From Tuwongella immobilis (GTDB lineage Bacteria > Planctomycetota > Planctomycetia > Gemmatales > Gemmataceae), in the NCBI RefSeq assembly GCF_901538355.1, contig NZ_LR593887.1:558001-622000 (forward strand): a stretch of DNA of 64,000 nt, given 5' to 3'. Within the stretch, counting starts at the first letter, position 1. Each line of letters starts with the position of its first letter. Below, piece by piece: positions 25,612 through 28,910 of this stretch. The notes under the pieces were generated by a model. It worked only from the letters and a program-made list of their open reading frames with translations. It was not told where the DNA came from and ran no database searches. Both the position numbers and the translations under genes were made by a program.

Positions 25612-26562
25612 TCAAATAAAGTACATCAAGCCTTGGTCGCCCTTGTTGGCGTTGGACCCGCGCAGCCGCAGCGACGGTTTCTCCAGCACCACAACCGTAT
25701 CTGGGGCAACACTATGCGTCAACCAGACGCTGGAGCCAATGACCGAACGTGCCCCCACGATCGTTTCACCACCCAAAATGGTGGCGTTGGCGTAGACAAT
25801 CACTTCATCTTGCAGAGTCGGGTGACGCTTGGTGCCGCGAATGAGCTGCCCATCGCTATCCGTCCGGAAGCTGAGCGCTCCGAGCGTAACCCCTTGATAA
25901 ATCTTCACATGCGATCCAATATCGCAGGTTTCGCCAATCACAACACCCGTACCGTGGTCGATGAAAAAGCTGTGGCCAATCGTCGCTCCGGGGTGGATGT
26001 CGATCCCCGTTTTGGAGTGTGCGTATTCGGTCATCATCCGCGGAATAAATGGCACACCCAGCTGACGCAATTCGTGGGCAATGCGATAAATCGTAATCGC
26101 TTCCAGGCCCGGATACGAGAAGATAATTTCGTGGTGACTCTTGGCGGCAGGGTCACCCCGATACGCGGCCTGCACATCCAGTTCGAGCACCGCTCGCACC
26201 TTGGGCAATCGCCGAAGCAGTTCCACGGCCTTGCTTTGCGCCAATGCCTCGAAATCGGTATGCGGGGCTTCGCGACACAATTCGTGTCGCAGAGCGCGGG
26301 CGATTTGTTGCGTCAGCTTATCATGCAATCCGTCGATAATGCTGCCAACGTAATATTCGACGTTGCCGATATGCAGATTCTGTCGCTGGCCGAAGCCCGG
26401 ATACAGCACCTCGAACAGATCCCGCACAATTTCAACCACCACGTCGCGACTGGGCAACGGCTCGTGACCCAAATGATTGATGTGGCTACACTCGGTGTAG
26501 CTGGCCACCAGCGCCTCAGTGATTGCCGACAATCCTTCCTTCAAATTCAAGTCAGTGGCCAT
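25612..26562 (-). CDS. cysE: serine O-acetyltransferase (CysE/EpsC type)
   Basis: A 316-residue enzyme that makes O-acetylserine from serine and acetyl-CoA, the first step of cysteine synthesis. After an N-terminal helical region it has the left-handed beta-helix hexapeptide repeats ([60 protein letters not shown]). Catalytic His residues are in DIHPGA and FIDHGTG. The ATG at 26562 begins [10 protein letters not shown]; the ORF continues upstream without protein-like features. There is no clear ribosome site. It resembles the longer bacterial SATs more than the 270-residue enteric CysE. Confidence 0.9.
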
Positions 26563-26878: not shown

Positions 26879-26895
26879 TGGCACACCAGATGCAT
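26879..26895 (+). promoter_or_regulatory. sigma-54 promoter of sRNA copy 1
   Basis: TGGCAC-N5-ATGCAT. The GG and GC dinucleotides are exactly 12 bases apart, as in -24/-12 promoters. One base departs from the consensus TTGCA. The predicted +1 is at about 26905. Confidence 0.8.
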
Positions 26896-26904
26896 TTGTT
26901 TTCA

Positions 26905-26984
26905 TTCGGCGAGAGCCTGAATCAGTCACCCGAAATGTACGGCCATGGGAGAGGTGGTACGACGTTTCGGGTGACTTTATTTTT
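26905..26984 (+). ncRNA. sigma-54-driven small RNA, copy 1
   Basis: The predicted ~80-nt RNA begins TTCGGCGAGAGCC, a 5' hairpin with a GAGA tetraloop. After a short linker comes a long hairpin: an outer 11-bp stem GTCACCCGAAA (26925-26935) with TTTCGGGTGAC (26965-26975), an internal loop, and an inner CCA/TGG stem closing the loop TGGGAGAGG. The stem is followed by TTTATTTTT, so the hairpin doubles as a Rho-independent terminator. The three other copies share promoter, 5' hairpin and apical loop but have different stem sequences that still pair. Confidence 0.85.
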
Positions 26985-27299
26985 GCGCTGCTGGTAGCAA
27001 TTCAATCGACCATTCTGGCCGAAATTCCATTCCCAACTGTTTGATGCATTTCTCACCATGCTGGATTTATTCCAGTCTCCCGATATTTCTGACCGCCGAT
27101 GATTTCGATGGTCACGAATCTGCGAAGCTGCCAGTTCGGATGCCTGGAATGTGTGCATGTCGTGCATGCAAAGCGAGCGGCAAGCGATGAGCGAATTCCG
27201 GAGCATCGCTTCGATATGAAAAGAAGTTTCTGTCGTAACCTGTTGTCAAGTCATGAGTTGAATCGATTCAAAAGTTGCGATTCGGAATTTTTTTGGGAT
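26985..27299. other. spacer between sRNA copies 1 and 2
   Basis: About 315 bases without a supported gene. A short self-complementary TGCATG-TCG-TGCATGCA cluster lies near 27153-27170 and could be a protein-binding site. Otherwise nothing was found. Confidence 0.5.
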
Positions 27300-27316
27300 T
27301 GGCGCGCAGGTTGCAT
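27300..27316 (+). promoter_or_regulatory. sigma-54 promoter of sRNA copy 2
   Basis: TGGCGC-N5-TTGCAT, a full match to the -24/-12 consensus with GG and GC 12 bases apart. The predicted +1 at 27326 falls two bases before CGGCGAGAGCC. Confidence 0.88.
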
Positions 27317-27325
27317 CTATAGTCA

Positions 27326-27406
27326 TTCGGCGAGAGCCTGAGAGGTCATCCGAAACGCACGGCCATGGGAGAGGTGGTACGGCGACTCGGATGACCTATT
27401 TTTTTT
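27326..27406 (+). ncRNA. sigma-54-driven small RNA, copy 2
   Basis: An ~81-nt RNA starting TTCGGCGAGAGCC. The terminator hairpin has outer stem GGTCATCCGA (27344-27353) with TCGGATGACC (27387-27396), then CGC/GCG, a 3x3 internal loop as in copy 1, CCA/TGG, and the loop TGGGAGAGG. It ends in eight T (27399-27406). Relative to copy 1 the outer stem carries compensatory changes (CACC/GGTG to CATC/GATG) while the loop and 5' hairpin are unchanged. Confidence 0.87.
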
Positions 27407-27898
27407 GCCCGAGCATATCTCGTATGATTGTCTTGTTATTAGTTGGTGGCGAGTTACCGCAAATTCTGTCGCCAATCCATTCACACCGATTGAAAAGATT
27501 CATATTCAGCTGATTGTTTCAGATCGGTCGCCAATCGATCCGTGGGGCTGACCCAATTCTATTTTGCAAGATAATTGAACGATGATTGGCGACTGATTCC
27601 GCAACCCAAGCGATGCCGCCAGGACGTAGCCGGAAGGAAACTCGGCCAATCGGCCTGCGACTCGAGCGGCGAGTGCAACATCGTCAGAATTTGCCGCGAT
27701 CCGATCAGGATGTTCGGTCGATCAGCTCCGAATGATCCATGCTTGAAGTGTGCGCGTCGATTGCATGAGTTGTGAGCAGAACTACGGGTTCCAATTCGAG
27801 TCGAATTGGCCGAGAGAAGAAAAAGAAAATGTCGTAAATCGTTATTTGGATTGGGTTTGCGATTGAATTGCAAGTGGAATGCGAAGAATTTTGAGTTT
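27407..27898. other. spacer between sRNA copies 2 and 3, with repeated GTCGCCAAT sites
   Basis: About 490 bases without a supported gene. The 9-mer GTCGCCAAT occurs at 27468-27476 and 27527-27535, and its complement ATTGGCGAC at 27585-27593, a possible activator-binding arrangement 300-450 bases upstream of the copy 3 promoter. The ORF at 27806-28066 runs through the sRNA and is not believed. Confidence 0.5.
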
Positions 27899-27915
27899 TG
27901 GCACCGTGATTGCTC
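27899..27915 (+). promoter_or_regulatory. sigma-54 promoter of sRNA copy 3
   Basis: TGGCAC-N5-TTGCTC matches the -24/-12 consensus (TTGCW), with GG-GC spacing of 12. The predicted +1 is at 27925. Confidence 0.88.
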
Positions 27916-27924
27916 TCTGTGTAT

Positions 27925-28006
27925 GTCGGCGAGAGCCTTATCGATCACCCGAATTCGACGAACTATGGGAGAGGTAGTTCGGTTGGATTCGGGTGATCGC
28001 ATTTTT
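27925..28006 (+). ncRNA. sigma-54-driven small RNA, copy 3
   Basis: An ~82-nt RNA with TCGGCGAGAGCC at the 5' end. The terminator hairpin has outer stem GATCACCCGAAT (27943-27954) with ATTCGGGTGATC (27987-27998), and an inner stem GAACTA/TAGTTC directly closing TGGGAGAGG. The inner stem differs completely from copies 1 and 2 yet pairs perfectly, which is strong evidence for selection on RNA structure. It ends GCATTTTTG. Confidence 0.87.
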
Positions 28007-28345
28007 GCCAACTCCACATCTGCAATTGATCCAAACTCATTGATATTCAGTGGTTCCGTGAGTTGAAACGGATTCCAATCGTCGCATCGGTTCCTTGGGA
28101 GTCGCGATTTCCCCATTCATGCAGACGCATTGTCAGGTCGGATTTCGAAATCTTGTGCCACGCCGTTGAGTTGGGATTGGGGACGATTTCAGGCCGACTC
28201 GTCTGCTTGGGGCGCATCGGGTGCCACTCGGCGAAGCAAAATGCTGGGCATGAATGCATGGGATGCGGGCAGTTCTGCGAGCAGATTGGGCAGTTCGCAG
28301 CCAAATCATATGGGGATCGTTGGATGTATTCACAAGAAAAAAGAA
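28007..28345. other. spacer between sRNA copies 3 and 4
   Basis: About 340 bases without a supported gene. ORFs on both strands (28063-28413, 28047-28433) lack ribosome sites and have implausible composition. Confidence 0.45.
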
Positions 28346-28393
28346 AAAACGCCTCGCATGAAGCCCTTACGGGACAAGCATTTGAGGCGTTTT
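28346..28393 (-). terminator. strong hairpin with T-rich tail on the minus strand
   Basis: A 10-bp stem AAAACGCCTC/GAGGCGTTTT encloses a 28-base loop. Read on the minus strand the stem is followed by TTTTTTCTTTTTTC, a classic intrinsic terminator tail; on the plus strand only TTTT follows. It would end a leftward transcript starting at or beyond ~28400, but no leftward gene is evident. It may instead insulate copies 3 and 4. Confidence 0.6.
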
Positions 28394-28423
28394 GGAGAGA
28401 GATACAATCGTGATTCGTTGCCT

Positions 28424-28440
28424 TGGCACACAAGTTGCAT
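28424..28440 (+). promoter_or_regulatory. sigma-54 promoter of sRNA copy 4
   Basis: TGGCAC-N5-TTGCAT, a full -24/-12 match with GG-GC spacing of 12. The predicted +1 is at 28450. Confidence 0.88.
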
Positions 28441-28449
28441 TATGTGTTG

Positions 28450-28524
28450 TCGGCGAGAGCCTTCGGTACACTCGGTTGCATCCAGCTATGGGAGAGATGG
28501 CTGGATGCGCCGTGTGTTCATTTC
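28450..28524 (+). ncRNA. sigma-54-driven small RNA, copy 4
   Basis: An ~75-nt RNA, the most diverged copy. The 5' hairpin TCGGCGAGAGCC is kept. The main hairpin has a 9-bp upper stem GCATCCAGC (28478-28486) with GCTGGATGC (28500-28508) and a lower ACAC..CGG/CCG..GTGT stem. The loop TATGGGAGAGATG keeps the UGGGAGAG core but ends in A instead of G. The 3' tail is short (CATTTCT), so termination may be weaker than in the other copies. Confidence 0.83.
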
Positions 28525-28910
28525 TAAGTTGCAATATCCTGCCTTCCCATCCAAAAGTCAAGAACTTTTCGCGGAAAATTCTCGAATTGTTCAACTTTGA
28601 CAAATCCTAAAAATTTCGGCAATTGCTGGGAACTTATTTCTCACCTGGACCGTCACACCTGAGAACTATTCTTCCAGATCCCAACGCGTTTCAATCCTGA
28701 GATTTCGAATGCCGAAATTGGGACGATTTCTCATAGCGAAATGTCTTGAAGTCGCGTAACCTCTTTGTATCTCAATCAGGGATCCGGTTGAATGTTGCCG
28801 TGCTCGGGGACGCATCCTCGCAATGGTTTGCTGGATCGCCCCGCCTCCACGAATGTGGAATCTGAGAAGGTCTGTTCGACGTTGCGCCACACCGTCAGGA
28901 AGGATCTCAC
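28525..28910. other. non-coding stretch upstream of the kinase gene
   Basis: About 385 bases, presumably the kinase promoter and leader. The minus-strand ORF at 28666-28923 is unsupported. No further sRNA copy is present here. Confidence 0.45.

Follow-up and report, generated by a model that had tools for sequence, protein, structure and literature searches.

The Qrr small RNAs (sRNAs) of Vibrio are placed under a sigma-54 activator, and CcsR1-4, the cuckoo RNAs of Rhodobacter, are four related, arrayed sRNAs that share one constant loop motif, much like the locus described here, except that their motif is C/U-rich and their promoters are of other types. RepG of Helicobacter, encoded in a single copy, reads a G-repeat with its terminator loop and, to our knowledge, involves no sigma-54. 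CsrB and RsmX, RsmY and RsmZ are RNAs that titrate the translation repressor CsrA.

The array analyzed here lies in a window, by which we mean the whole 64,000-nucleotide stretch of planctomycete DNA under study. It is like Qrr in comprising several apparently redundant sRNAs, which in the case of Qrr act on the mRNA 5' UTR according to PMC2680268, and in its sigma-54-type promoters, as predicted from motif and spacing. It differs from Qrr in lacking an Rfam Qrr match, in its loop and its phylum, and in that the terminator loop is here the proposed seed. LhrC of Listeria (PMC4132741) is a multicopy sRNA with a redundant short loop motif, present also in the terminator loop, that blocks translation at the start region. 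Its CU-rich UCCC faces a G-rich Shine-Dalgarno sequence, whereas the array would set a purine-rich loop, GGGAGAG, against a CU-rich site, the mirror image; the sigma-54-like promoters set the array further apart. RepG (PMC8295292) acts on a simple-sequence site within the leader of an mRNA, as is proposed here. With CsrB and RsmX, Y and Z (PMC7652899) the array has in common hairpin loops that contain GGA, a tandem arrangement of hairpins in some relatives, and the presence of CsrA; unlike the described sponge families, the array has no match in Rfam.

Architecture of the four-unit array

The preliminary description placed four units at 26879, 27300, 27899 and 28424, and all are present there on the plus strand. 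Zero-mismatch matches to TGGCRC-N5-WTGCW occur at these four positions and nowhere else in the window, with 10 bases between GG and GC in 4/4 units. The features, with sRNA starts predicted by promoter spacing, are as follows.

25612..26562, minus strand: serine O-acetyltransferase gene, divergent, start ATGGCCACTGAC (neighbor also in many relatives)
26879..26894, plus strand: unit 1, sigma-54-type -24/-12 element (pattern match)
26905..26985, plus strand: unit 1, predicted sRNA, predicted start through T-run (promoter spacing, fold, model)
26907..26917, plus strand: unit 1, CGGCGAGAGCC (exact match)
26947..26953, plus strand: unit 1, loop GGGAGAG (exact match)
27300..27315, plus strand: unit 2, sigma-54-type -24/-12 element (pattern match)
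27326..27406, plus strand: unit 2, predicted sRNA (fold, model)
27328..27338, plus strand: unit 2, CGGCGAGAGCC (exact match)
27367..27373, plus strand: unit 2, loop GGGAGAG (exact match)
27899..27914, plus strand: unit 3, sigma-54-type -24/-12 element (pattern match)
27925..28007, plus strand: unit 3, predicted sRNA (fold, model)
27927..27937, plus strand: unit 3, CGGCGAGAGCC (exact match)
27967..27973, plus strand: unit 3, loop GGGAGAG (exact match)
28424..28439, plus strand: unit 4, sigma-54-type -24/-12 element (pattern match)
28450..28525, plus strand: unit 4, predicted sRNA with weak T-run (fold, model)
28451..28461, plus strand: unit 4, CGGCGAGAGCC (exact match)
28490..28496, plus strand: unit 4, loop GGGAGAG (exact match)

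Each unit contains CGGCGAGAGCC exactly once, with no other zero-mismatch site in the window, and ATGGGAGAG likewise has one exact copy in each unit and none besides, a total of four reached by 0/100 shuffles. The expected spacing of 12 bases after the GC fits the named starts 26905, 27326, 27925 and 28450; CGGC follows after 13, 13, 13 and 12 bases. Units 1 to 4 each surpass all 200 of their own shuffles in fold energy (z -5.07, -5.23, -7.27 and -4.81), and the long hairpin with the conserved loop is seen in all four. A 5' mini-hairpin, GGC-GAGA-GCC, had also been proposed; unit 4 and the relative L033 are predicted to form it, whereas the best fold of units 1-3 pairs this stretch with the T-run region. 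Units 1-3 have a clear T-run and unit 4 a poor one, matching the three of four copies originally reported. A pattern scan of the organism's own genome (G000, one contig of 6,690,754 bases) revealed no copy beyond the four, and the covariance model returned a fifth match only at E 0.64.

An RNA family with covarying stems

The four units belong to a genuine RNA family. Scanning public genomes by pattern yielded 83 stretches, all of which were read, and a single true homolog was retained: L033, from a Planctomycetota MAG, which shares promoter, GGCGAGAGCC, loop and T-run with the window units. At E 0.01, a covariance model built from five sequences (R1) matched 65/102 genomes of the order. A second model (R2), built from 51 sequences with seed input from 44/81 sources at E up to 1e-6, matched 98/397 genomes of the class, namely 84/95 in the window's own family (f1), 0/7 in f2 and 14 elsewhere. 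Laxer filters added weak matches (E 0.05) in 7/11 of the f1 genomes previously missed, of which one or two may be chance, since the four weakest have E 0.018 to 0.046; f2 and f5 still gave 0/7 and 0/3. From 109 model matches, 100 were kept after leaving out nine with E of at least 0.23, and the removal of two weak matches (L147:615 and L146:7426) left 98 hits, among which L198, clearly false, is still counted. Copies number 1 to 4 in most genomes, with a maximum of 9 model matches, and some f1 loci carry two such hairpins in tandem.

In alignment A6, which was fitted to the structure, a caveat on its covariation figures, 92.5% of cells are paired and 20/24 pairs have changed on both sides; cells with both-side changes number 241 versus 64.5 in shuffles, and slid versions are at most 44.2% paired. 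A five-sequence MAFFT alignment has 9/24 covarying pairs and 90% pairing versus at most 41.9%, so the stem changes with pairing kept, noted earlier between copies, are real. Of the 98 model hits, 91 have GGGAGAG and a further 6 GGAGAG, the model itself favoring this loop, and f1 loci mostly read (A/U)GGGAGAGG. Stems that vary around a constant loop support the earlier view that selection acts on RNA fold and loop. The proposal of a separate planctomycete RNA family likewise finds support in homologs from most f1 genomes, with covariation and sigma-54-like elements. Rfam contains no family match for the window array or the f3 loci described below, and for the loci of eight relatives just distant, low-scoring matches, mostly to microRNA models. 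Neither this RNA nor a similar planctomycete sRNA family is described among the matches listed from the open-access literature, an absence short of proof, and the family is apparently undescribed.

Putative sigma-54 promoters accompany the RNA in relatives as well as in the window. TGGY-N9-GCH occurs within 75 bases upstream of 62/104 hits (1/105 dropped as too close to a contig end) versus 283/5200 in the control, with the model start following at a fixed distance of 25-27 bases in 36/62 cases. Counted by locus, with a stricter form of the element allowed up to 250 bases upstream, 72/84 carry one versus 312/3360 (9%) in the control. A T-run of four or more closes 69/98 hits, and the hairpin is probably a built-in terminator, as had been suggested. 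The general marks of a trans-acting sRNA, its own promoter and an intrinsic terminator, are thus both predicted from the DNA. A search for a common upstream activator word gave weak candidates only, the best being CTTTGCGA in 8/62. In L122 and L123, an extra hairpin-like stretch with GGGGGAGAGGTGG or similar lies just upstream of the RNA promoter and is perhaps a decayed copy.

Among the 14 matching genomes outside f1, 11 were read, and 8 matches (L203-L207 and L210-L212) look real by loop and promoter, the promoters of L204-L206 being judged by eye; L202, L208 and L209 do not. Five loci of a second family, f3, have one sigma-54-like element and a GC-rich 5' domain followed by hairpins with the loop (A/U)GGGAGAGG, in number 4 (L203), 1 (L207), 1 (L210), 7 (L211) and 1 (L212). 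The GC-rich domain (AAGGGCGAGCGGG-type), recognized by eye as common to all five and situated between the element and the hairpins, has no Rfam match and may form another functional portion of a longer RNA.

The loop complement in mRNA leaders

The preliminary description expected loop complementarity near start codons. For the exact complement of the loop this is borne out in the organism's own genome, of which 1.2 Mb was read with 633 genes from a simple self-written caller; for the longer CCTCTCCC, found in 3 leaders (0.7 expected), and for other genomes, the signal is weak or absent. CTCTCCC occurs between -60 and +25 in 19/633 leaders versus 2.6 expected, same-letter permutations reaching 0 to 7. 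Between -60 and +3 the count is 16/633 versus 1.71 (log10 P -10.3), which ranks CTCTCCC second of the 11,904 7-mers seen, behind CCCCATG, and first among words free of ATG. Against an intergenic background it ranks twelfth (16 versus 3.70 expected, log10 P -5.7), the 11 words above it holding or overlapping ATG or resembling a Shine-Dalgarno sequence. By position, 6 sites fall at -120 to -60, 16 at -60 to +3 and 5 at +3 to +66; other bins are mostly near or below 1.7, with 3 at 300 to 363. In a scan along units 1-4, the loop complement is the best-enriched word, and most leader sites do not use the eighth loop base.

The GAGA tetraloop, also put forward as a pairing site, fares poorly: the complements of GGCGAGAGCC are not clearly enriched in leaders (GGCTCTCGCC 0, CTCTCGCC 2 versus 0.8, GCTCTCG 4 versus 3.1), and GGCGAGAGCC was rejected as a seed. 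Anti-Shine-Dalgarno hairpins were rejected as the cause of CTCTCCC, as GGGAG in the same leader shows no association (2/16 versus 81/617). A crude signal-peptide score led to the rejection of a regulon of secreted proteins as well (7/19 versus 195/633, P 0.62). The genes with CTCTCCC, whose names were partly assigned here, with seven checked, include two sulfatases, planctomycete cytochrome-type proteins, two xylose-isomerase-like proteins and one amidohydrolase.

In genome G094, 30/33 CTCTCCCATG sites were fetched, two of which are the RNA genes themselves; 12/28 of the remainder pass a strict gene-start test versus 103/1468 ATGs. Here CTCTCCC adjoins start codons, and many sites read, by eye, as a Shine-Dalgarno-like stretch, CTCTCCC and ATG in succession. 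Enrichment of a seed complement at translation starts, a general sRNA trait, is thus found in the own genome and G094 and is weak or absent elsewhere. For instance, CTCTCCC is found in 2/122 leaders of G072 versus 0.68 expected and in 4/310 of the pooled f1 loci versus 1.53 (RNA genes masked) or 3.11 (unmasked), the two together giving 6 versus 2.21 (P 0.025). G103, which is free of the RNA, has 0/213 (0.8 expected), as fits pairing. G115, an RNA-bearing f3 genome, has 0/129 (0.42 expected); the own-genome fold enrichment would give 3.9 (P 0.02). Duplex energies of loop and leader showed no clear excess over shuffled loops, the real count being reached by 5/27 shuffles at -13 and by about half at -11 and -12. 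Whole-genome counts of CTCTCCCATG were rejected as support, because CTCTCCCATG exceeds CCCTCTCATG also in genomes where no RNA was found (33 versus 19 summed over f2; 38 versus 2 in G104). In G104, CTCTCCCATG is clustered on C1, for example at 5682899-5683793 (4 sites within 900 bases) and 5845444-5845687 (3 within 250); these clusters have no R2 match and could be repeats or a divergent hairpin array.

Base pairing and competing explanations

We favor trans base pairing of the loop with mRNA leaders by four paralogous, sigma-54-driven sRNAs, at a probability of about 0.5; the data from the own genome and from G094 support pairing as such well. Each sRNA, of ~80 nt, would be transcribed from its own sigma-54 promoter and closed by a hairpin serving as terminator and active site together. 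The invariant GGGAGAG would act as seed for CUCUCCC in many mRNA leaders, usually no more than ~60 bases from the start codon and in some cases immediately next to the AUG, and pairing would block ribosome binding and so repress translation. More gene copies, or more hairpins per transcript, would supply a higher dose of the same seed. We infer transcription, its dependence on sigma-54, an inducing signal, the pairing and the repression from these features. In a broader form, which we put forward tentatively and would place below an even chance, the RNA might be a global planctomycete riboregulator: sigma-54-driven, with a seven-base loop that is both terminator and seed, reading CUCUCCC near the start codon of ~2-3% of mRNAs (as in the 16/633 leaders), its dose set by gene copies (as many as 9 model matches in one genome) and hairpin number (1 to 7 per RNA). 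The clear promoter, terminator and loop open post-transcriptional control in this phylum to direct tests, the seven-base word names a candidate regulon, and a new role for sigma-54 in planctomycetes is possible.

The strongest rival is a protein sponge, in which the loops would titrate CsrA, or another RNA-binding protein, and sigma-54 induction would free CsrA-bound mRNAs; it owes this place to CsrA without FliW, GGA loops and the f3 hairpin arrays, and we consider it unlikely while taking it seriously. CsrA is found in 102/102 genomes of the order, a universality that makes its presence non-discriminating, and FliW, a protein that antagonizes CsrA in other bacteria, in 0/102. The tandem hairpins with the same loop, up to seven in L211, have a sponge-like look, and two or more occur in some f1 loci. 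However, each window unit has one GGA hairpin, and its other conserved piece, GGCGAGAGCC, lacks GGA. Several groups other than the window copies read AGGGA, fitting ARGGA, the core of the consensus that SELEX gave for CsrA (PMC7652899). The window copies read UGGGA, not ANGGA, in loops of 7-9 nt (UGGGAGAGG or UGGGAGAGA; WGGGAGAGG in the family) rather than the ANGGAN hexaloop, and the GAG kept after GGA is not asked for by that consensus. A sponge also leaves CTCTCCC in leaders unexplained. Base pairing and a CsrA sponge may both be true, and if CsrA is the partner, the family would add a Csr sponge to a phylum for which no description of one was found in the literature searched. The CsrA set itself is unusually large, with seven matches in G000, two of which read as intact CsrA-like proteins, and up to nine in relatives, and has no known antagonist, FliW being absent.

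It is improbable that the hairpins are terminators or small repeats spread through intergenic DNA with no trans function. The T-runs that close most of them suit such a reading, as do dispersed copies in G094 with no clear promoter (L167, L169, L170 and L172); against it stand the few copies per genome, the conserved position in many genera, the promoter-like elements at fixed distance, and stems that change around a constant loop.

Open frames clustered across 81 loci place a serine O-acetyltransferase gene next to the RNA or in its vicinity in at least 26, a lower bound since some genes, including that of the window, were miscalled on the opposite strand, followed by L-threonylcarbamoyladenylate synthase (19) and a SecA-like protein (17); nine loci have formylmethanofuran formyltransferase instead. 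Because neighbor genes differ between loci, the position of the RNA is partly conserved and not fixed, and the acetyltransferase gene is a recurrent neighbor and at most a candidate part of the system. That the RNA is a local regulator of this adjoining gene, its loop pairing with the start region, is very improbable: in the window an 11-base duplex is possible between GGCCAUGGGAG of units 1 and 2 and CUCCCAUGGCC at the acetyltransferase start, but such pairing is absent in 13 other loci, so that the gene was rejected as a single conserved target, the starts in 14 acetyltransferase-adjacent loci share ATGGC only and not CUCCC, and in genus g7 and others the RNA is located elsewhere. Within the array, the interval between units 3 and 4 contains at 28341-28393 an inverted repeat with A- and T-rich ends (aaaacgcctc ... 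gaggcgtttt), noted by eye, which looks like a bidirectional terminator directly before the unit 4 promoter.
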